Below, in pieces: positions 3,968 through 36,778 of a stretch of DNA of 37,347 bases. Source of the stretch: a virus; the IMG/VR virus record IMGVR_UViG_3300036806_000303, positions 1 to 37,347 of that record; one strand, given 5' to 3'. Both the position numbers and the translations under genes were made by a program. Within the stretch, counting starts at the first letter, position 1, and each line of letters begins with the position of its first letter. Under the pieces are notes generated by a model. It was not told the DNA's origin, made no database searches, and saw only the letters and a list, made by a program, of their open reading frames with translations.

Positions 3968-4040
3968 TGCGCGCGGGAGGACTCGAACCTCCGGCCTCCG
4001 GGCTCGCAACCCGGCGCTCTATCCGCTGAGCTACGCGCGC
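3968..4040 (-). tRNA. tRNA-Arg(GCG)
   Basis: 73 nt, complete cloverleaf. Acceptor GCGCGCG/CGCGCGC, D arm GCTC-AGCGGATA-GAGC, anticodon stem CCGGG/CCCGG with loop TTGCGAG, T arm GGAGG-TTCGAGT-CCTCC, discriminator A; CCA is not encoded. Anticodon GCG reads CGC and CGU. A20 in the D loop and C35 agree with arginine identity. Bacteria normally read these codons with an ACG (inosine) tRNA, so GCG is unusual. Confidence 0.88.
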
Positions 4041-4413: not shown

Positions 4414-4436
4414 GCGCCGACGCTCCCTCGAGCGGG

Positions 4437-4444
4437 CGATAGGC
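4437..4444 (+). promoter_or_regulatory. SAS-like start element, plus strand (fibre gene)
   Basis: CGATAGGC on the plus strand ending 7 nt before the ATG at 4452. Its orientation follows the gene. Confidence 0.85.
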
Positions 4445-4451
4445 CGAGACG

Positions 4452-6962
4452 ATGCCCGCCACCCCGTCCTTCCGAAGCGCCGGCACCCACTCGTTCACGG
4501 CCAACAACGTCCAGAACCCGACGACGCTGACGCCGGGCGCACCGGCAGGGACCGCGGCCGGCGACCTGCTCCTCCTCGTCTGCGGGTCGCGGTCGATCAC
4601 CGCCACCGTCGCCACCCCGACCGGCTGGACGCTCGTCACCGGCTTCCCGAAACGCAGCGGCACCGCCTCGGGCGGCACCTTCTACGTCTTCACGCGGATC
4701 GCCGACGGCACCGGCACCGACACGCCCTCACCCATCTGGTCGGGGCTCACCACCGGCACCAGCGGCGACTCCTCCGGCGCCGGAATCATCTGCGTCCAGA
4801 ACGCGACCGCGACCCTCGACGGCACCGTCGCCTCCTCCGACCTCTCCGCGCAGACGACGACGTCGGTGATCCCCGCATTCACGACCGCCACCAACAAAAG
4901 CTACGTGCTCGGGCTCGCCCTGAAGCTGCTCGAGTCGTCCGGGCAGACCTCGACCGTCGCGACGTTCACCGAACGCGTCGACCAGTCAACCACCAGCGGC
5001 ACCGGCCACATCGTCGAGATCTCCGACAAGGTGCAAACCACCGCAGGCTCCTCCGGCACCGCCACCGTCACCTGGTCGGCCACCGGCAGCGCGCGCGCGC
5101 TCACCGTCTCGCTCGGCTTCAAGGCCGCCCCCGCCCAGCTCACCCAGACCGCGTCGTTCACGCAGCCGCAGACCTACAGCGACCAGCTCGCGACCGCGGC
5201 CGGCGCCAGCGACCTCTACACCCAGCCGCAAGACTTCGAGTTCCAGAACGCGGCCGCGAAAAGAGCCGCGTTCACGCAGGCCAGCACAAGCACGCTCAGC
5301 CGGGCCGCCTCGAAGCTGAAAGCCTTTACGCAGGCACAGACGATCGCCGCCTGGACCACGTTCAAGCAGACCGGCAGCAACGCGTTCACCGTCGCCGTCA
5401 CCGTCACCCAGGCGCAGACGCTCACCCTCCGCCGCAACGCGGCCGCGGGCCGCGTCTGGACCCAGAGCCAGACCGCGACGCTGACCAAGACGGTCACCGA
5501 CTCGAAAGCATGGACGCAGGCGTCCGCGTTCCTCTCCACGCGCTCCTCGACGAAAACCGTCGCCGCTGGCCAGCAGCAGCAGCTCACCAGCCGACGCGCT
5601 GCCGGCAAGACCGGAACGTGGACGCAGAGCTCGAGCCTCACCCTGCCGGCGCGCGCGATCGCCGCCGGCCGCGCCTGGACGCAGGGGCAGGCGCCGAACC
5701 TCGCGAAGGCGGTCACCGACTCGAAAGTCTGGACGCAGACGACCGGCTACCTCGCCGCGCGCGCCGCCGGCAAAACGCTGGCAATCAGCCAGCCACAGTC
5801 GGCGAGCATGACCCGGCAGCTCGTCCATCTCGTCACGCTCGCGTTCGCGCAGGCCCAGAGCTACCTCACCTCGAGAAGCGCCGGCAAGACCGGAACGTGG
5901 ACGCAGACGCAGACCGGCTCGAGCTCGCGCGCCGCCGGCGCAACCCGAACGTGGACGCAGGCCGAGAGCTCGAGCTTCCTCCGCGGCGCGATCGGCCGCG
6001 TCGTCTCGCTCGCCTTTACGCAGCCGCAGACGCTCACCCTGCAAAAAGCCGCCGCCGCCGCGAAAACATGGGCTCAGGCCCAGTCGGCGACCGTCGCCGA
6101 GCAGATCGTCAAGCTCGTCACGCTCGCGTTCACGCAGCCGCAAGCCCTCACCCTGCGCCGAAACGTGGCCGCCGGCCGCGCCTGGACGCAGAGCTCCGCC
6201 GGCACACTCCGAAAGGCGGCAGCCTCCTCGAGAGCATGGACGCAGACCGAGGCCGCCACGCTCAGCAAGGCGGCCGCGAAACGGGTCAGCGGCGCCCAGG
6301 CCCAAACCGCCGTCTTCTCCGCCCAGCTCGTACGGCTCGTCGTGCTCGCATTCACGCAGCCGCAGCAGCTCCTCACCCGCCGCGGCGCCGGCAAGGCCAC
6401 GGCCGCCGGCCAGGCGGCCGCCCTGAACGTGCGCAAGGCGGCCGCCGGCGAGCTCGACCTGCGGCAGCCGGCCGCCCTGAACGTGAACAAGCACGCCGCC
6501 GGCGAGCTCACGCTCGAGCAGCCGGCCGCCCTGAACGTGAACAAGGCCGCCGGCGCGGCCCGCTCCTGGACGCAGCCGCAGGCCGCGACCCTCACCGCCC
6601 GGCTGCTCCGGATGATCAGCCTCGCATTCGCGCAAGCCAGCACGGTCACCCTTTCGAGAGGCACCGGCAAGACCGTCGCCGCCGACCAGTCGCAGACCTA
6701 TATGACCCGGAAAGCCGTGGCCAGCACGATCAGCGCGACGGTCGGCACGGTCGGCTCCTGGATCCGCGGCATCGCCGAAAAGGTCGCGACCATGCTGCTC
6801 GGCGACAAGGCCACCACGCTCGCCGTCGTCGACGACAAGCCGACCCGCTACGCCATCCTCGACGACCAGCCCCGCGTCGCCGCCGCCTTCGACGACGCCG
6901 CCACCACACGGCTGCTCCTCGACGACGCCGCAGCCACCCGCGCCGCGCTCGACGACGCCTAA
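4452..6962 (+). CDS. Repeat-rich tail fibre/adhesin
   Basis: 836 residues. Residues 1 to about 230 form a beta-rich N-terminal domain: GTAAGDLLLLVCGSRS, ATPTGWTLVTGF and GTFYVFTRIADG, the 'GDLLLL..PxGWTLV...YVFxRIA' pattern of phage and bacterial surface proteins. Residues about 236-760 consist of about 28 repeats, mostly 18 residues long, with consensus [WF]TQxQxxxLxRxAAxxRx; some are 20 residues and end LVxLVxLA. The last 55 residues are a different 10-residue repeat built on a hydrophobic residue plus Asp-Asp. It is the only long virion-type gene on the plus strand, starts behind its own CGATAGGC element, and meets the 829-residue protein gene tail to tail. A role in receptor binding or as a fibre shaft is inferred. 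Confidence 0.7.
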   Translation: MPATPSFRSAGTHSFTANNVQNPTTLTPGAPAGTAAGDLLLLVCGSRSITATVATPTGWTLVTGFPKRSGTASGGTFYVFTRIADGTGTDTPSPIWSGLTTGTSGDSSGAGIICVQNATATLDGTVASSDLSAQTTTSVIPAFTTATNKSYVLGLALKLLESSGQTSTVATFTERVDQSTTSGTGHIVEISDKVQTTAGSSGTATVTWSATGSARALTVSLGFKAAPAQLTQTASFTQPQTYSDQLATAAGASDLYTQPQDFEFQNAAAKRAAFTQASTSTLSRAASKLKAFTQAQTIAAWTTFKQTGSNAFTVAVTVTQAQTLTLRRNAAAGRVWTQSQTATLTKTVTDSKAWTQASAFLSTRSSTKTVAAGQQQQLTSRRAAGKTGTWTQSSSLTLPARAIAAGRAWTQGQAPNLAKAVTDSKVWTQTTGYLAARAAGKTLAISQPQSASMTRQLVHLVTLAFAQAQSYLTSRSAGKTGTWTQTQTGSSSRAAGATRTWTQAESSSFLRGAIGRVVSLAFTQPQTLTLQKAAAAAKTWAQAQSATVAEQIVKLVTLAFTQPQALTLRRNVAAGRAWTQSSAGTLRKAAASSRAWTQTEAATLSKAAAKRVSGAQAQTAVFSAQLVRLVVLAFTQPQQLLTRRGAGKATAAGQAAALNVRKAAAGELDLRQPAALNVNKHAAGELTLEQPAALNVNKAAGAARSWTQPQAATLTARLLRMISLAFAQASTVTLSRGTGKTVAADQSQTYMTRKAVASTISATVGTVGSWIRGIAEKVATMLLGDKATTLAVVDDKPTRYAILDDQPRVAAAFDDAATTRLLLDDAAATRAALDDA
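5158..6735 (+). repeat. About 28 tandem imperfect 54-bp repeats
   Basis: In-frame degenerate repeats (54 bp, some 60 bp) coding for the 18-residue units of the fibre. The DNA copies are diverged but share segments such as ACGCAGCCGCAGACGCTCAC. Such an array can change copy number by recombination. Confidence 0.75.
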
Positions 6963-24279: not shown

Positions 24280-24288
24280 GTCGCCGCC

Positions 24289-24296
24289 GCCTATCG
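24289..24296 (-). promoter_or_regulatory. SAS-like start element (gene 24279)
   Basis: CGATAGGC in CGATAGGCGGCGGCGAC, ending 9 nt before the ATG. Confidence 0.85.
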
Positions 24297-24321
24297 GACG
24301 GCCTCCACGCCTCGGGACGCG

Positions 24322-26041: not shown

Positions 26042-26048
26042 CGCCGCC

Positions 26049-26056
26049 GCCTATCG
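26049..26056 (-). promoter_or_regulatory. SAS-like start element (gene 26041)
   Basis: CGATAGGC in CGATAGGCGGCGGCG, ending 7 nt before the ATG and starting 8 nt after the 3' end of tRNA-Ser. Confidence 0.85.
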
Positions 26057-26063
26057 GCGTGAG

Positions 26064-26147
26064 CGGAAGCGCCGGGACTCGAACCCGGAGAGCCTTGCGG
26101 CCTTACCGCGCTAGCAACGCGGCTCCTCATCCAGCCGGATCGCTTCC
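26064..26147 (-). tRNA. tRNA-Ser(GCU)
   Basis: 84 nt class II tRNA. Acceptor GGAAGCG/CGCTTCC, anticodon stem CCGCG/CGCGG with loop TTGCTAG (anticodon GCU, codons AGC/AGU), a variable arm with GGCC-GCAA-GGCT, T arm CCGGG-TTCGAGT-CCCGG, discriminator G as expected for serine. CCA is not encoded. Confidence 0.92.
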
Positions 26148-27553: not shown

Positions 27554-28861
27554 TTAGGTCGCGCTGTTGACGTACGCCTTGATGGCACCCGTCTGATCGA
27601 CGAGGTTGCCGTCGGTCCGGTGGTAGCCCAGGAACCCGATCTGCAGGCCGTCCATGTAGCGCTCGTTCATCCGGATGACGCCGAAGGCGCCGACCGGCTT
27701 CTCGTCCGGCGTCGGGCCGGTGCGGCCGACGTCGCGGATCGTGTATGCGCTCATGTCGCCGAACAGGATCGACTTCGCGTTCGCGGTCATCGCGGGCATC
27801 GACGGATCCGCCCACATCGGCTTGCCGAGTAGAGTGTCGGGAGCACCGTTCGCGAGAACGGAGGCGACACCGCTGGTCGGCGACCAGATGTAGTTGTTCG
27901 TCGAGTCCTTCAACTTCCGGATCGCCTTCACGGTCGAGTCGGCGAGGAGCCACTCGGCGTTCGTGCGATATTGCGGGCCGACCGAGTAGAACAGGTCGAA
28001 GACGTTGTCGGCGGTGACCGACGTGGTCTGTCCTGCTGCACCCGTGACGCCTGCCGAGGTGAGCCCGATGAGCCCGGTCGGCTGGCCGGTGCCGGAGCCG
28101 TTCAGGTAGCCGTCGTTCTCGAGGAAACCGATCGACTGACCGATCGCCTTGCCGAGGTACGCGATGAGGCCGACGGCCTCGTCCTCGACGAGCTCGACGC
28201 TGACCTTGACGAGCCGACGCGCGGTGTAGGCGTTGAGCGTGATCTGCCCGAACGTCTCATCCGCAGCGCTGGAGGCAACGCCTTCTGCCACCCACGACGC
28301 GGCGCCATGCGCGGTCGTCTTCGGAACCTGCAGACCCTCACCCGTCGAGGTGACGATGGTGTTGACCCGCGTGCGGCGCACGGTGCCCGCCTGAACGGCG
28401 TGCAGCGCGAGCTGCTTCTGGAAGTCGGTCGGCACGAGGTAGCCGCCGAGGTTGTTCGTGCCCTTCGCCTGGTCGCGCATCTCGGCGCTTCCGGCAGCAA
28501 GGATGGAACGCGTGTCCGCGTCCACGTCGTTCGCACCACGGATGAGGTACGTCGCGAACGCGCGTGCGTAGTCCTCCGACTCGAACAGACGCTTGTCACG
28601 GGACTCGCCGCCCTGCAGCTCACGACCGGCTACGCCGTCGCGCTGCTCGAGTTCGAGTTCCATGTCGCGGAGCTTGATCTCCGCCTTGATCCGCTCGCCG
28701 TTCGCGTCGACGCGGGCCTCGAGGCGGTCATACTCCTGCCGCTCTTCGGCGGTCAGATCGCGGCCGCCGTCGGCGTCCGCCGTGTCCAGGATCGAGCGCA
28801 TGCGGCTGACGTTGCCCGTGCGCTCCTCCTGCAGCTCGGTGATCTTGTTGGAGATTTCCAT
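27554..28861 (-). CDS. Major capsid protein, HK97 fold
   Basis: 435 residues. Residues 1-110 form a charged helical delta-like region (SNKITELQEERTGNVSRMRS, then RLEARVDANGERIKAEIKLR) that the prohead protease would remove. From about 130 the HK97 core follows: GGYLVPTDFQKQLALHAVQA, AHGAASWVAEGVASSAADET, YLNGSGTGQPTGLI ('f..GdGtgqP.Gi'), EWLLADSTVKAIRKLKDSTN, LLGKPMWADPSMPA, ILFGDMSAYTIRDV. ATG 28861 is fixed by a CGATAGGC element ending 9 nt upstream; longer in-frame readings run through that element and a hairpin. Hairpins lie on both sides of the gene. Confidence 0.95.
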   Translation of the reverse strand: MEISNKITELQEERTGNVSRMRSILDTADADGGRDLTAEERQEYDRLEARVDANGERIKAEIKLRDMELELEQRDGVAGRELQGGESRDKRLFESEDYARAFATYLIRGANDVDADTRSILAAGSAEMRDQAKGTNNLGGYLVPTDFQKQLALHAVQAGTVRRTRVNTIVTSTGEGLQVPKTTAHGAASWVAEGVASSAADETFGQITLNAYTARRLVKVSVELVEDEAVGLIAYLGKAIGQSIGFLENDGYLNGSGTGQPTGLIGLTSAGVTGAAGQTTSVTADNVFDLFYSVGPQYRTNAEWLLADSTVKAIRKLKDSTNNYIWSPTSGVASVLANGAPDTLLGKPMWADPSMPAMTANAKSILFGDMSAYTIRDVGRTGPTPDEKPVGAFGVIRMNERYMDGLQIGFLGYHRTDGNLVDQTGAIKAYVNSAT

Positions 28862-28870
28862 TGCGCCGCC

Positions 28871-28878
28871 GCCTATCG
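28871..28878 (-). promoter_or_regulatory. SAS-like start element (major capsid gene)
   Basis: CGATAGGC in CGATAGGCGGCGGCGCA, ending 9 nt before the ATG. Confidence 0.85.
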
Positions 28879-28908
28879 GCGCGACTGCGCAACGCGGACA
28901 CCCAAAAC

Positions 28909-28936
28909 GAAGGGCCGCCAGTTTGGGCGGCCCTTC
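28909..28936 (-). terminator. Hairpin between protease and capsid genes
   Basis: GAAGGGCCGCC / GGCGGCCCTTC, an 11-bp stem with a 6-base loop, followed on the minus strand by GTTTTGGG. The best T run of the set. It lies between the protease stop (28960) and the capsid start element. Confidence 0.7.
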
Positions 28937-28959
28937 TGCCATCCGCTTCCGCGGAATCG

Positions 28960-30363
28960 TTAGACGAGTTCGAGCTCTAGCTCGGCGAGCCGGATCTTGC
29001 GACGCTCGGCCTCGAAGCGCTCGGTGCGCTCCTCGTCGAGTGTCTCGTCGCGTTCCTCGACCGGGTCGGTCTCGTCACGCTTCTCCGTCTCTGCCTCACC
29101 CGACCGGCCTCCCTCGGCCACGACGGCCGTCAGGAGCTCGGTGAGCTGCGTGATGATCGACTGCATCGCCTGCGCCTGCGCGTTGTCGGCGGCGTCGTCT
29201 TCGAGCGCCGCGTTGTACGACGCGGAGACCATGAAGCAGGACGCGGCCTCGATCATCTGCGTCAGCGACCACACGGCCATGTCGTCTTCCCAGTCCCAGG
29301 CGCGCTCCTCGAGCGAAGCCCGGAACGCGGCCAGGTCGGGAAGCTCGCGCTGCTCGGCGGCCTCCGGCTTGTGATCGTTCAGCTCGACGGTCTCAACGAC
29401 GGTCGAGTCTTCGATCGCCGCTGCGGCCGAGAGCACCTCGGCAAGCAGCTCTTGCGCCTGCGTCAGCTTCTCGGAGGTCGCGGCGGAGAGCTTCTTGCCC
29501 ACGCGCTCCTCCTTGTCAGTGTCGGTTTCGCGGGCGGCGCCGGCGGCGCCGCTCGTCATCGCCTCGATCTGCGCCTCGGCCGCGTCGCGGCTCTGGTGGC
29601 AGGACTGCACTTCGTCGTTGAAGTTCCACACGACCGCGACGCCGTCGCAGCACGGGTGGTCATCCTGGATCCGCACGCCGGCGAGGGCGCGGGCCTCCTC
29701 GAACGCGGCGCGGGCCCGGTCGAGCTCCGACTCGGTGTCGGTCTCGGGGGTCGTGATCACGTTCAGCTCCTCGAGGTCCTCGGCGGCGCGCTTGGCGCGG
29801 TCGAGCAGCTCGGGGTTGTGCTCGGCGATGTACGTCCGCACCTCGGCGGTCGTGTCCGGATACGCCGGGTAGGTCACGACGCTGACGTCGAACAGGTCGG
29901 CTTCGATCAGCTCGCGGATCGGCAGGCCGGTCTCCGCGTCCTTCTCTTTCCAGTCGTCGGACCGGGTGATGAAGCCGAACGACATCTGGTTGATGTCCTC
30001 GCGCCGCATCGACTCGACGAGGTCGTTCGCGTACGACGTGTTCGGCAGCTCGCACTCGACGCGCAAGCCGATCTCGTCCTCGGTGAGGGTGATCGTGCGC
30101 GGCGTGCGGCCGAGGATCAGGTTCGAGTCGTGGTTGATCAGGAAGCGGACGTCCTGGCCGTCCTCGACGGCTGAACGGAACGCGCCCGGCTGGATCCGCT
30201 CACGGAAGCCGCCGAGATTCACCGACAGCTCGTTGAAGACGGCGGCGTAGCCGCTGAAGGTCGCCGGGGCGTCACCCTCGGCCGACCGGACCTCACACTT
30301 GGAGAGGTCGAGCTTGAAATCGCGCCGCTCCGGGGCGGGGCGCTTGTTCTCGTGAGATGCCAT
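28960..30363 (-). CDS. Prohead protease (S78 type) with long C-terminal extension
   Basis: 467 residues, more than twice a typical HK97-type prohead protease. Residues 15-175 are the protease: FSGYAAVFNELSVNLGGFRE, RIQPGAFRSAV, FLINHDSNLILGRT (catalytic His78), INQMSFGFITR (Ser128), then EADLFDVSVVTYPAYPDT. The remaining 290 residues are acidic and helical, with a Cys/His patch (DDHPCCDGVAVVWNF, VQSCHQSRDA) at about 230-265 and a Trp/Met-rich segment at about 370-420. No separate scaffold gene is visible, so the extension may act as scaffold. The start has a CGATAGGC element ending 9 nt upstream. Confidence 0.88.
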   Translation of the reverse strand: MASHENKRPAPERRDFKLDLSKCEVRSAEGDAPATFSGYAAVFNELSVNLGGFRERIQPGAFRSAVEDGQDVRFLINHDSNLILGRTPRTITLTEDEIGLRVECELPNTSYANDLVESMRREDINQMSFGFITRSDDWKEKDAETGLPIRELIEADLFDVSVVTYPAYPDTTAEVRTYIAEHNPELLDRAKRAAEDLEELNVITTPETDTESELDRARAAFEEARALAGVRIQDDHPCCDGVAVVWNFNDEVQSCHQSRDAAEAQIEAMTSGAAGAARETDTDKEERVGKKLSAATSEKLTQAQELLAEVLSAAAAIEDSTVVETVELNDHKPEAAEQRELPDLAAFRASLEERAWDWEDDMAVWSLTQMIEAASCFMVSASYNAALEDDAADNAQAQAMQSIITQLTELLTAVVAEGGRSGEAETEKRDETDPVEERDETLDEERTERFEAERRKIRLAELELELV

Positions 30364-30372
30364 GTCGGCGCC

Positions 30373-30380
30373 GCCTATCG
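30373..30380 (-). promoter_or_regulatory. SAS-like start element (protease gene)
   Basis: CGATAGGC in GGCCGATAGGCGGCGCCGAC, ending 9 nt before the ATG. Confidence 0.85.
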
Positions 30381-30419
30381 GCCCCGGACGCGCGTCTCAG
30401 ACCCTCGAACGAGGAGGGC

Positions 30420-31129: not shown

Positions 31130-32620
31130 TTAGTCTGATTCGACGGGCTTGCCGGCTGCGAGTGCGCGTTGCTCGGCGCGTTCGAGCGCGAACTGGCGGA
31201 TGTGCTCGGCGAGCTCGGGCTTGTCGCGCATGATCACGCTGAGCAGCGCGAGCGCGTTCTTCTGCGCCGTCGACCCGTCGGAGCCGGTCGTCGGCTGAGT
31301 GCCGCCGCCGTCCTTGTTGTTGTCGCCGCCGCCGCCCGACTTCGACGCGGAGCTGTTGACGTCGATCTGGTCGAGCTTCGACGACGGGATCATGTTCAGC
31401 GGCACCAGGAACTCCTCGAGCTGGAACTCCTCGTCCATCGTCCGCTCGCCGAGACGGCGACGAACATCGGCGCGTGAGAGGAAGCCCCACTGGATCCCGA
31501 TCGCGAACGCCTCGAACATCGACTTCATGTCGCCGCGCAGCAACGCGTCGAAGTTGAACCGCGGCTTCCGCTTCGCCGCCCGGTCCTGCTTCGACCCGAA
31601 CAGCTTGACGGTGAGCGCCTGCTCGGCGGAGACGATCCAGCCGCGCAACGCATAGGTGAGGAAGTCGATCGACTCCTGCTCCTTCGACACGCGCGACTGT
31701 CCCGCGTCGGGCTCGTTCAGCCGGTGCATCGGCACACCCCAGAGCCGCGCGATCTCATGCGTCGCGTACCGCTTCGTCTCGAGGAACTGCGCCTGCTCCG
31801 GCGAGATGCCGACGTCCTGCCACTTCGCGCCGCCCGACAAGATCCCGACCAGCTGGGAGCGCTTCAAGCCTTCATGGCCGGCCTTCCAGCGCTTCATGAA
31901 CTCGTCCATCTGCTCGTCGCCCATCTCCTCGGGCAACTCGATGATCCCGCCCGGCCGGGCGTTGTTCGCCCAGAAGCGGCCGCCGTACTGTTGCGCCGCC
32001 GACGCCGCGGCGAGCATGTCGCGGCTGTTGGTCACCGGCGAGATCCCGAGCACCGCCTGCAGCGGGATCACCCGCTCGGCGGGCAGCACGATCCGTGCAT
32101 GGTCGTCCGTCTCCGACTCGTAGGCGAGCTCGCCGTTCGGCAGCCTGACCGGCCGCGTCACGTCGGGCTTGAGCGGCCAGAGGCCGAGGATCTTGCCGGC
32201 CTTGTTCATCTCGATATAGAGGTAGCCGCGGCCCCAGAGCATCGCGTGCGCGATCCAGTTGCCGATCAGCTCGACGCCGGTCATCTCCGGATTCGGGAAC
32301 TCGTTGAGGAAGTCCCAGCGCTCGTCGTCGGGGACAAGCACGCGGCCCTCGCCGGTAGCGTCGTTCTCGGAGATCTCGATCGGCAGCGTCGCCACCGACT
32401 CGGTGACCACACGGACGCAGCCGTAGACAGCGGTGAGCCGGAACGCCTTGAGCGGCGTCATCGAGACGCCGGAACTGGTGGCCCCGTCGACGTTCGCGAC
32501 GATCGCCGAGATGATGTCGACCGACGGGTTCTCGAGCCCTGAGATGTCGCTTGCGGGGATGTCGCGCTGGCCGCCGCCGAGGCCGCCGGCGAGGAAGCCG
32601 CTGAGGAACGGGATCTTCAC
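31130..32620 (-). CDS. Portal protein, HK97 type
   Basis: 496 residues, GTG start placed 6 nt after a CGATAGGC element. The pattern is that of the HK97-like portal family: TPLKAFRLTAVYGCVRVVTE ('al....v.acv..ia'), SVATLPIEI, LIGNWIAHAMLWGRGYLYIE, ISPVTNSRDMLAAASAAQQY, FWANNARPGGIIELPEE, and EIARLWGVPMHRLNEPDAGQ ('IA..fgVPp.ll'). The C-terminus has a Gly/Asn/Asp-rich linker (KSGGGGDNNKDGGGTQPTTG) and a helical tail. The 12-mer portal ring is the DNA gate and docks the terminase. Confidence 0.94.
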   Translation of the reverse strand: MKIPFLSGFLAGGLGGGQRDIPASDISGLENPSVDIISAIVANVDGATSSGVSMTPLKAFRLTAVYGCVRVVTESVATLPIEISENDATGEGRVLVPDDERWDFLNEFPNPEMTGVELIGNWIAHAMLWGRGYLYIEMNKAGKILGLWPLKPDVTRPVRLPNGELAYESETDDHARIVLPAERVIPLQAVLGISPVTNSRDMLAAASAAQQYGGRFWANNARPGGIIELPEEMGDEQMDEFMKRWKAGHEGLKRSQLVGILSGGAKWQDVGISPEQAQFLETKRYATHEIARLWGVPMHRLNEPDAGQSRVSKEQESIDFLTYALRGWIVSAEQALTVKLFGSKQDRAAKRKPRFNFDALLRGDMKSMFEAFAIGIQWGFLSRADVRRRLGERTMDEEFQLEEFLVPLNMIPSSKLDQIDVNSSASKSGGGGDNNKDGGGTQPTTGSDGSTAQKNALALLSVIMRDKPELAEHIRQFALERAEQRALAAGKPVESD

Positions 32621-33549: not shown

Positions 33550-33589
33550 GCCCGGAAATATTCCTGATCCATTCCTGAATCCGATCGAG

Positions 33590-33662
33590 CTGAGGAGGCA
33601 GGGATCGAACCTGCGACCGTCGCCTTAACAGGGCGCTGCTCTACCGGCTGAGCTACTCCTCA
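33590..33662 (-). tRNA. tRNA-Asn(GUU)
   Basis: 73 nt. Acceptor TGAGGAG/CTCCTCA, D arm GCTC-AGCCGGTA-GAGC, anticodon loop CTGTTAA (GUU, codons AAC/AAU), T arm GCAGG-TTCGATC-CCTGC, discriminator G. CCA is not encoded. One anticodon-stem pair (27-43) is mismatched. Confidence 0.92.
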
Positions 33663-34029: not shown

Positions 34030-34037
34030 GCCTATCG
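34030..34037 (-). promoter_or_regulatory. SAS-like element containing the terminase stop codon
   Basis: CGATAGGC in GGCCGATAGGCGGCC. The TAG (34032-34034) is the TerL stop codon. No start codon follows at 6-9 nt. Confidence 0.75.
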
Positions 34038-35666
34038 GCCGCGCTCCTTCGGCGGGTCGGGAAGGTCGGGCTGTTCGCCGTCCATCGTCATCCAGTAGAG
34101 GCCCGGCTTCGTCGTGACGGCGTCGGCGAGGTCGCACCGCGACACCGCCAGCACCCCGGCCGCCATCGCGTCGATCTTCCCCGACGCCGCCCTGGTCACC
34201 CGCGGCCCGGACGCGGTCATCTCTTCGCCGGTCGCGGCCGCGTGCGCGGCGAGGTCTTCGTCGCCGTCATGCTCGAGGTCGCCGGATTCGGCGTACTGCT
34301 TCAGCAGCGTCCAGGCGGCGCGCGTGTGCGCGTGGAACGGCGGCATCTCGACGATCTGCTTCTCCCGCAGCCGGAGCCGTTTGCGGAGAAGCTGGATCGA
34401 GCGGCCGAAGAAGCTGGGGTCGTACGCGATCTCCTGGAGCCGGTACTTGCCGGCGAGCTCGGCGACGAAGTCCTCGATCACCTGCAGGTCGGTGGTGCCG
34501 CCCGGCATGAACTCGCCGACCTGGTCGCGGCGGACCGTCCAGATCTTCGCGCGGATCGCGATCTTCCCGTTCGGGAGCCGGGTCGCCCACACGACCGCGC
34601 TCGAGTCGTCGGTCCAGCCGATGTCGACGCCGATCCAGATCTTCGTCTTCCGCGGGAACGGGTCTGTGTCGCCGACGAGCGATCCCCAGAGGCCGGTACG
34701 CAGCCAGAGATGCTTCGCCGCCGTCCACATATTCAGATGCAACCGCTGGAAGTCGAGCTCGCTGAAGCCGGGCGCGGCGAGCTGCTTCTTCAGGTCGGCG
34801 ACCGAGATCCACGACGCCGGGTTCGCGTACCGCCAAAGCTCGGGGTCTTCCCAGCGGTGATGCAGCTCCTCGGGGATCCCGTACCACCAGAACAAGATCC
34901 CGTTCTCGCGGTCCTCGTGGATCCGCAGGCACGGATTCGAGTGCCTGATGTTCGCGACCGGCAGCGTCAGCGCCTCGTCGTAGGTCATGCCGAGCAGCGT
35001 GTCCTTCTTGAAGCCGGCCGTCGTGATCATCAACGCGTACGGGTCGTCGCGTTTATGCAAAGCCGTCCACATCGCCACCCACGTCTCGACCTCGCGCGCG
35101 GTGATCAGCGCATGCGTCTCGTCGCCGATCACGACCGCCGGGTTCTTGCCGTGCTGGCCGAGCCCGGACGCGGTCAGCACCTCGAAGAACGCGTGCGCCT
35201 TCTCATAGGTGATCTTGTTGCGGCCGGACCGGAAGCCGTGCTTCTGCAACGCGCTCGTCTCGACGAACGCGCGCGCGAACTCGTACACGACGTCGGCCTG
35301 CTTCTTCGACGACGACAGGCAGTAGGCGTGCGACGCGTCGCGTCTCGACGCCGTCTCGAACAGGCCATACCCGGCCGCCAGCGGGCTCTTGCCGTTACCT
35401 CTCGGGATGCCGAGGATGCCGAGCCGGAACAGCCGCGCCACCGGCTCGCCCGCGTACGGGTAGCGGCGCATCCCGTAGGTCACGAGCTCGTCCGGCGTGC
35501 ACGCCCGCAGCCCGTGGAAATAGTTGGTGAACCGCCGCTGCCAGCCCTCCATCACGAACGGCTGCCCGGCGCCGCGTCCCGACGGGAACGTCAGATACCG
35601 CTGGAAGAACTTGTCGATCGCGGGGCCGCGGCTGAGCGTGACCGCCGACGGCTTAGAGCTCGTCAT
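34032..35666 (-). CDS. terL: Terminase large subunit
   Basis: 544 residues. ATPase and nuclease motor that packages DNA through the portal. Walker A lies at about 86-94 (GIPRGNGKS), Walker B at 177-183 (AVVIGDE). The RNase H-like nuclease carboxylates are Asp348 (WIGVDIGWTDDS), Asp416 (EIAYDPSFFG) and Asp499 (KIDAMAAGV). All expected motifs are intact and the length is normal for P27-associated large subunits. The start overlaps the small-subunit gene by 14 bases. The stop TAG lies within a CGATAGGC element. Confidence 0.96.
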   Translation of the reverse strand: MTSSKPSAVTLSRGPAIDKFFQRYLTFPSGRGAGQPFVMEGWQRRFTNYFHGLRACTPDELVTYGMRRYPYAGEPVARLFRLGILGIPRGNGKSPLAAGYGLFETASRRDASHAYCLSSSKKQADVVYEFARAFVETSALQKHGFRSGRNKITYEKAHAFFEVLTASGLGQHGKNPAVVIGDETHALITAREVETWVAMWTALHKRDDPYALMITTAGFKKDTLLGMTYDEALTLPVANIRHSNPCLRIHEDRENGILFWWYGIPEELHHRWEDPELWRYANPASWISVADLKKQLAAPGFSELDFQRLHLNMWTAAKHLWLRTGLWGSLVGDTDPFPRKTKIWIGVDIGWTDDSSAVVWATRLPNGKIAIRAKIWTVRRDQVGEFMPGGTTDLQVIEDFVAELAGKYRLQEIAYDPSFFGRSIQLLRKRLRLREKQIVEMPPFHAHTRAAWTLLKQYAESGDLEHDGDEDLAAHAAATGEEMTASGPRVTRAASGKIDAMAAGVLAVSRCDLADAVTTKPGLYWMTMDGEQPDLPDPPKERGR

Positions 35667-36165
35667 CGTCGATCTCCGCCGCGACGTCGATCTCGCTCGC
35701 CTCGCCGGCGGTGATCTCCTCGAACTCGTCCTGCTGCCTGCGCGCCGCCGCCGCGGTCGCTACCCGTGCCCGCGCGACCGGTGTCGCCGCATACTCGGCC
35801 GCGAACTTCAAGATCGCCGCGTGCGCGCGCGCCTCGACCTTCAACGCCGGATGCTCGACGACCTGGCCGAGCGACCCGCGCGCGTAGTGGCCCTGCTCCT
35901 CGAGCACGTCGGCGGCCGCCATCGCCCGGTCCCACTGAAGACAGAGCGCCAGCAGGCCCGCCCGGTCGACCGCATACAGCGCTCCGATAGCGCCGAGCTG
36001 CGAGGTCATCTCCACCCAGAGCTCGGCGCCGTCGCGGCCGAGCATCCCCGGCGGCGTGAAATCGAGACCCTTCTCCGGCCGCAGCGGTTCAGGCAGCGGC
36101 CGGCGTCCAGGATTGCCGTCGACCTGGGCCAGCTCGACCGGCTTCGGCTTCCGTCCGCGTGCCAT
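35653..36165 (-). CDS. terS: Terminase small subunit, P27 family
   Basis: 170 residues. The N-terminus MARGRKPKPVELAQVDGNPG, then RRPLPEPLRP, is the P27 signature; WVEMTSQLGAIGALYAVDRA, then LLALCLQWDRAMAAADVLEE, matches the helical core, and the C-terminus is acidic. It recognises phage DNA for packaging and works with the large subunit directly downstream. A CGATAGGC element ends 7 nt before the ATG. The gene is divergent from the Ntn hydrolase gene across a 67-bp gap. Confidence 0.92.
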   Translation of the reverse strand: MARGRKPKPVELAQVDGNPGRRPLPEPLRPEKGLDFTPPGMLGRDGAELWVEMTSQLGAIGALYAVDRAGLLALCLQWDRAMAAADVLEEQGHYARGSLGQVVEHPALKVEARAHAAILKFAAEYAATPVARARVATAAAARRQQDEFEEITAGEASEIDVAAEIDDDEL

Positions 36166-36172
36166 CCGGGCC

Positions 36173-36180
36173 GCCTATCG
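36173..36180 (-). promoter_or_regulatory. SAS-like start element (small terminase)
   Basis: CGATAGGC ending 7 nt before the ATG. It faces away from the plus-strand copy at 36219 across the divergent gap. Confidence 0.85.
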
Positions 36181-36218
36181 GGCGAAACCGCGCCAGCCCG
36201 CGCAGAACGAGGCCCGGC

Positions 36219-36226
36219 CGATAGGC
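36219..36226 (+). promoter_or_regulatory. SAS-like start element, plus strand (Ntn hydrolase)
   Basis: CGATAGGC in GGCCGATAGGCCGCGCC, ending 6 nt before the GTG at 36233. GGCC-GATA-GGCC can form a hairpin. Confidence 0.85.
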
Positions 36227-36232
36227 CGCGCC

Positions 36233-36778
36233 GTGACCTGCATCGTCGGCGTCAAGACCAAGGGAGGCGTCCTGCTCGGCGGAGACAGCCTCGGCTCCGA
36301 CGGATCCAGCGGCATGAGCTACCAGGCGCCGAAGGTGTTTCGGCTCACCCGCCAGGTCGCCGCCGGCATGTGCGGCAGCTTCCGGATGGGCCAGCTCCTA
36401 CAGCATCACGTCGTCGCCGGCGACGTCGGCGGAGACGAGCTGAAGTGGGCGATCACGAACTTCGTCCCCGCGATCCGCGACGTCTTCTCAGAACACGGCT
36501 ACGCGCACATCAAAGACAACGAGGAGACCGGTGGCACCTTCCTCCTCGCCGTCCGCGACCGCCTATTCAAGGTCCAAGACGACTACTCGGTGCTCGAGTC
36601 GCGCAAGCCGTACGACTCCTGCGGCTCCGGCGAAGACTTCGCGCTCGGCGCCATGCACGCCCTCTGGAAGAACGATCTCCGCCAGCCGCGGAAATACCTG
36701 ACCGCCGCCCTGGACGCCGCCTCCGAATTCGCGGTCGGCGTCGCCGCCCCATACCACTTCACCCAGACCATCCGATGA
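36233..36778 (+). CDS. Proteasome beta/HslV-like Ntn hydrolase
   Basis: 181 residues, GTG start set by the element 6 nt upstream (this places Thr directly after Met). After Met removal Thr1 would be the nucleophile (MTCIVGVKTKGGVLLGGDSL). Asp17 (GGDS) and Lys33 (YQAPKVFRL) fall at exactly the numbers of the proteasome and HslV active site. The later CGSGEDFALGAMHAL matches the 'GSG..yALgA..al' helix of HslV and beta subunits. No propeptide and no ATPase partner lie in the window. A peptidase role in virion maturation or host-protein turnover is inferred. It is the first plus-strand gene beside the terminase. Confidence 0.8.
   Translation: MTCIVGVKTKGGVLLGGDSLGSDGSSGMSYQAPKVFRLTRQVAAGMCGSFRMGQLLQHHVVAGDVGGDELKWAITNFVPAIRDVFSEHGYAHIKDNEETGGTFLLAVRDRLFKVQDDYSVLESRKPYDSCGSGEDFALGAMHALWKNDLRQPRKYLTAALDAASEFAVGVAAPYHFTQTIR

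Follow-up and report, generated by a model that had tools for sequence, protein, structure and literature searches.

Proteasome homologs in bacteria and phages

Fuchs, Alva and Lupas described 22 proteasome homologs in 2021 (PMC8665760). In that work, AAH was found in alpha-proteobacteria, Actinobacteria and phages, and PPH was described as a protein of about 140 residues without helix H2. Group I members of the AAH kind lack the S12/H5 element, and propeptides are confined to 20S beta and HslV subunits, most of which carry one (PMC8665760). Neither an Actinobacteria-specific AAH phage nor an informative genomic context was reported (PMC8665760). AAH and PPH are described families that are functionally blank, and our literature search found no functional study of either, and likewise no activity, oligomer or substrate. 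Here we analysed a 37,347-nt stretch of viral DNA (IMG/VR record IMGVR_UViG_3300036806_000303, positions 1 to 37,347; referred to as the window), which encodes a proteasome homolog beside its terminase genes.

A GTG-initiated gene encodes a proteasome homolog without propeptide

The ORF of the protease runs from 36233 to 36775 on the + strand and is followed by a stop codon at 36776-36778. It has a GTG start and 181 codons, and the encoded protein of 181 aa opens with MTCIVGVKTKGGVLLGGDSLGSDGSSGMSYQAPKVF. The features of the gene and of the sequence preceding it are:

36218..36229, +, start-associated motif CCGATAGGCCGC, directly upstream of the protease GTG (motif counts)
36233..36778, +, AAH-type proteasome homolog, predicted N-terminal threonine peptidase without propeptide (PF00227, phrog_1040, AlphaFold2, PDB matches, conservation)
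36236..36238, +, codon of Thr1, the predicted nucleophile once Met is removed (Thr in 178/180 relatives)
36284..36286, +, codon of Asp17, GAC (180/180 relatives)
36332..36334, +, codon of Lys33, AAG (179/180 relatives)
36374..36376, +, codon of Gly47, the proteasome oxyanion-hole position (Ser in most relatives; residue role from PMC8665760)

In Pfam the protein matched a single family, PF00227 (Proteasome), with 40 bits where the cut-off is 22.4 (E 4e-10). Residues 1-173 were matched by phrog_1040, the 'peptidase HslV family' (E 2e-23). Because of these two matches and a gene-like GC content at the three codon positions (0.66/0.44/0.90), we do not regard the ORF as a chance one. A longer ORF from a GTG at 36056 was rejected, its codon-position GC (0.63/0.76/0.80) not being gene-like. 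The GTG at 36233 is backed by the 180-sequence alignment, in which relatives begin with Met-Thr at this column, and by the start-associated motif 7 nt upstream. The same evidence places the start codon next to Thr1, leaving no propeptide. With Met removed, Thr1, Asp17 and Lys33 fall in exact proteasome register, and the motif CGSGEDFALGA at residues 129-139 runs into helix H3; both features had been picked out in an earlier, sequence-only reading of this DNA, the latter as a GSG..ALGA helix.

The motif preceding the gene, CCGATAGGCGGC with the core GATAGG, was found throughout the window. The exact sequence CGATAGGCNGC occurs in 14 copies compared to 0.11 expected, and GATAGG itself occurs at 24 sites, 18 of which precede the start of an ORF of 60 aa or more by 7-10 nt, compared to 9.7% of random sites. 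The motif marks about 18 genes, head genes included. Besides the site before the protease gene, examples are:

36170..36181, -, before the divergent terminase small subunit (motif scan)
30370-30381, 26046-26057 and 24286-24297, -, further examples
4436-4447, +, preceding the ORF at 4452

The clear + strand cases are those before the protease gene and before the ORF at 4452. Since the protease gene has this motif in common with other genes of the phage, it is a resident gene, wired like the phage's own, and its GTG start gains support. The motif resembles the start-associated sequence of cluster K mycobacteriophages, GGGATAGGAGCCC, which lies 3-7 bp before starts and only in the non-structural genome half (PMC3203893), but the window motif also marks virion genes. 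A second sample yielded, independently, an assembly of almost the same phage (IMGVR_UViG_3300036801_000181, 1-11789), with 99.7-100% identical proteins, and the motif is present there as well. This assembly spans the portal end to the tape measure and ends short of the protease gene.

The predicted fold is that of a proteasome subunit

An AlphaFold2 monomer model, built with 92 sequences in the alignment, reached a pLDDT of 96.5 and a pTM of 0.91. The model has Ntn-core strands, helices at residues 50-59, 69-87, 134-145 and 152-166, and a last strand at 174-178. Helices H1-H4 are all present in it, H2 being residues 69-87, and there is no C-terminal S12/H5 element. The best match among solved structures was BPH of Thiobacillus (Z 21.2, rmsd about 2.3, 172 residues; Foldseek E 1e-10), followed by HslV (Z 20.2) and the 20S beta subunit of Mycobacterium tuberculosis (Z 20.1). 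Anbu was absent among the top structure matches listed, which excludes nothing. Structure prediction and comparison with solved structures therefore agree on the Ntn-hydrolase/proteasome fold proposed by the sequence-only reading, and not on the different fold that it had named as contrary evidence.

We provisionally filed the protease as AAH on the published family description, because its 181 aa, the presence of H2, the absence of a propeptide and of S12/H5, and its bacterial kin fit that family. It shares with AAH the residues Thr1/Asp17/Lys33, four helices and the missing propeptide and S12/H5 element, and its kin likewise occur in alpha-proteobacteria, Actinomycetota and phages. Unlike the AAH phages of PMC8665760, the carrier phage here is probably actinobacterial. 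PPH is also a phage-borne proteasome homolog, but at about 140 aa and without H2; with 181 aa and H2 at residues 69-87, identity with PPH was rejected. The protease has a fold (Z about 20) and triad in common with HslV (ClpQ). Identity with HslV was rejected on the curated equivalog models (28.8 vs 137 and 25.7 vs 157.75 bits), and no HslU-like gene was recognised among the window genes searched. The bacterial and archaeal 20S beta equivalogs were rejected likewise (27.6 vs 191.9 and 26 vs 224 bits). BPH, the beta-proteobacteria proteasome homolog (PDB 5ovs/5ovt/5ovu), is the closest solved fold, yet shares only about 22% identity. Many deposited phage homologs carry the name of PHROG 1040, 'peptidase HslV family', which is an annotation transfer.

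The catalytic triad is nearly invariant among numerous relatives

Relatives of the protease were found by tblastn in 177 of 50,697 deposited phage records and in 24 plasmids, mostly rhizobial. An alignment-based pattern scan revealed at least 364 IMG/VR stretches that encode relatives and, in bacterial genomes, 97 stretches, chiefly from rhizobia, Azospirillum, Frankia and Streptomyces; the bacterial carriers include Rhizobium, Azospirillum, Mesorhizobium, Streptomyces, Frankia and Actinoplanes. Single-protein pattern scans returned no close relatives in the viral or genome collections, so that among the pattern scans the viral and bacterial kin came only from the alignment query. The sequence-only reading had called such a gene unusual. 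This did not hold, given relatives in 177 phage records and in 364 or more IMG/VR stretches, many of them with the gene near packaging genes, and the families described in 2021 (PMC8665760). The observation itself was correct, and the gene is nothing out of the ordinary within a family that is known but functionally uncharacterised.

Among 180 aligned relatives, 178 have Thr1, all 180 have Asp17 and 179 have Lys33, contrary to the loss of Thr1 or Lys33 in relatives that the sequence-only reading had considered. Of the two exceptions at Thr1, one (L016) has Ser, and the match of the other (L177) begins at query residue 10, its start being uncertain. The idea that some relatives lack Thr1 was rejected; it arose from two misannotated starts, each with an M-T-type start just upstream. 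In Moorella phage MTATph1 CDS0188 (L003:2899-2941) the start is annotated too late, and a TTG near 2899 (TTG-ACT-TGT-ATT) gives MTCIAG with Thr1. In Microbacterium phage Cassita gp16 (L008:4929-4963) the annotated GTG start cuts off the catalytic Thr. An in-frame ATC-ACT-ACC-ATT lies upstream, past a GGAG stretch, and would give the family start M-T-T-I, which suggests a rare ATC start. In four related genomes of Rhizobium lusitanum, leucaenae and freirei (L103, L104, L105 and L106), the AAH gene looks broken, because its frame stops past residue 38.

In a tree of the family, bacterial copies were scattered among viral ones (14 label changes compared to 19.1 in shuffles), with few strongly supported branches; the window copy sits on a long, poorly placed branch (1.52). 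Since the bacterial copies are scattered in this way, exchange of the AAH gene between phages and hosts is likely. As many AAH carriers are nitrogen fixers, a link to nif genes was examined using queries from L108. It was dropped, since nif genes were nearby only in two near-identical Ensifer contigs (L108:7996-11408 and L109), where AAH lies about 1.5 kb from nifX-nifN-nifE; this was not seen at other bacterial loci. Escherichia phage 121Q (L014:969-2501) encodes a ClpP-like and a ClpYQ/HslV-like protease (gp473 and gp475) two genes apart, and a Sir2-like protein is encoded next. A 'proteasome-like' gene is listed, by annotation only, for Alteromonas phage V22.

The gene recurs near the packaging module

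In the window, the protease gene adjoins a packaging and head module on the opposite strand:

35653..36165, -, terminase small subunit, P27 family, divergent neighbour 67 nt from the protease gene (TIGR01558, PF05119, phrog_83)
34032..35666, -, terminase large subunit (PF03354, PF20441, phrog_9)
31130..32620, -, HK97-type portal protein (TIGR01537, PF04860)
28960..30363, -, S78 prohead protease, the phage's own maturation protease (TIGR01543, PF04586)
27554..28942, -, HK97 major capsid protein, motif-supported start at 28861 (TIGR01554, PF05065)

Three tRNA genes, all on the - strand, are scattered in the window: Arg-GCG (3968-4040), Ser-GCT (26063-26147) and Asn-GTT (33589-33662).

The stand-alone gene beside the terminase, as first noticed, reflects a recurrent location. 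We sampled 49 IMG/VR contigs carrying the gene, 29 of which had a detectable portal or TerL gene. The AAH gene lay within 5 kb of portal or TerL in 15 of these 29, compared to 6.2 expected at random positions, the p value of about 1e-4 being a guide only because the contigs are fragmentary and the phages share ancestry. When contigs were treated as circular, the count was 17 compared to 6.9 expected. A portal-like gene was a recurrent neighbour in 17 of 80 viral loci, mostly downstream on the same strand. This proximity, together with the start motif common to AAH and head genes, would be expected if the enzyme served virion assembly, trimming a scaffold or head protein in addition to S78. However, S78 prohead protease is present in the window phage and in 20 of the 29 comparable contigs; in large phages, including jumbo and T5-like ones, the AAH gene lies among nucleotide-metabolism/metabolic and unclassified genes; and some bacterial copies, such as those of Azospirillum and rhizobial plasmids, have no nearby detectable head genes. 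We consider an assembly role improbable. The presence of S78 in the window and in 20 of the 29 contigs suggests that the AAH gene does not replace the prohead protease, and makes the role in virion maturation put forward earlier less likely. The protein was also rejected as a prohead protease by type, as it matches only the Proteasome Pfam family, not S78/U9, and a separate S78 is encoded in the genome. A related possibility, which we regard as quite improbable, is that the head/packaging programme has phage AAH as an additional protease: produced together with the head genes, this proteasome-type particle would degrade or trim a packaging or scaffold component untouched by S78.

The GC content of the window is 68.9% and its terminase is nearest to those of Streptomyces phages (25-27% identity), from which we infer that the host is probably actinobacterial. 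TerL patterns identified no closer kin of the phage, and when a host genome was sought, the record proved to be a lone virus contig. A Streptomyces contig (L153) also carries AAH, upstream of portal and S78 protease genes. The window phage and this contig both bear on the earlier report of no Actinobacteria-specific AAH phage (PMC8665760).

A different role, proteasome interference, had been suggested from the sequence, and an actinobacterial host may have a 20S proteasome. The protein could then be a beta-like subunit with a dominant-negative effect, joining the host 20S particle and poisoning it, as the GC content and the Streptomyces-like terminase would allow. Against this, the active-site triad is intact, the score is far under the 20S beta equivalog cut-offs (27.6 vs 191.9 bits for the bacterial model), and relatives abound in phages of hosts without 20S proteasomes; to our knowledge, the hosts of rhizobial, Bacillus, Salmonella and E. 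coli phages have none. We found no positive evidence for interference, and phages and bacteria without a 20S proteasome commonly carry the family. This role is extremely unlikely.

A predicted threonine peptidase that probably acts in the infected cell

Collectively, these results suggest that the gene encodes an AAH-type threonine peptidase, probably oligomeric, that acts in the infected cell and is not a capsid-maturation protease (probability roughly 0.7). The triad, its conservation, the start and the context are read from sequence, and the fold is a confident prediction. With Thr as the next residue, Met would be removed by the host methionine aminopeptidase. Lys33 and Asp17 would then activate the exposed Thr1 as a single-residue nucleophile, as the geometry of the predicted fold suggests. 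The compact subunit probably forms a BPH/HslV-like homo-oligomer with active sites facing an inner chamber. It may cleave unfolded or peptide-like substrates and need no unfoldase partner of its own. Its gene, next to the packaging genes, is expressed from the start-associated motif that belongs to the phage, and the protease would act on phage or host proteins in the infected cell.

Its target might instead be one specific host protein, removed as an anti-host or counter-defence measure. The patchy spread over unrelated phages and the likely exchange with bacterial genomes are typical of accessory genes and agree with such a role. However, the protein had no match among the defence-system models of PADLOC, no linked defence or counter-defence gene was found in the window, and the family is also retained widely in bacteria, where its active site is invariant. 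We therefore consider this unlikely. New here are the statistical link of AAH to the packaging module and a likely actinobacterial phage carrier, along with the Streptomyces contig. Given these and the almost invariant active site over 180 members, phage AAH is a tractable candidate for a first functional test.

Substrate-pocket positions of the window copy

The window copy departs from near-invariant family residues at six positions (R29Y, D31A, F45M, T46C, S47G and Q118S). Positions 31, 45 and 49 belong to the S1 pocket in proteasomes. Because of the departures at near-invariant positions and the long branch, an altered specificity of this copy is possible. In the family as a whole, the oxyanion and S1 positions differ from those of classical beta subunits, and a ligase, connectase, belongs to the proteasome-like superfamily (PMC8665760), so a highly specific, connectase-like Ntn ligase or amidase has to be weighed beside a peptidase. 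In the model, however, the helix pairs of H1-H4 are both present and there is no connectase-type insertion between S3 and S4, and the closest folds are peptidases. We judge a ligase or amidase very unlikely. At the oxyanion-hole position, Gly47 makes the window copy of the predicted peptidase more proteasome-like than most of its kin.
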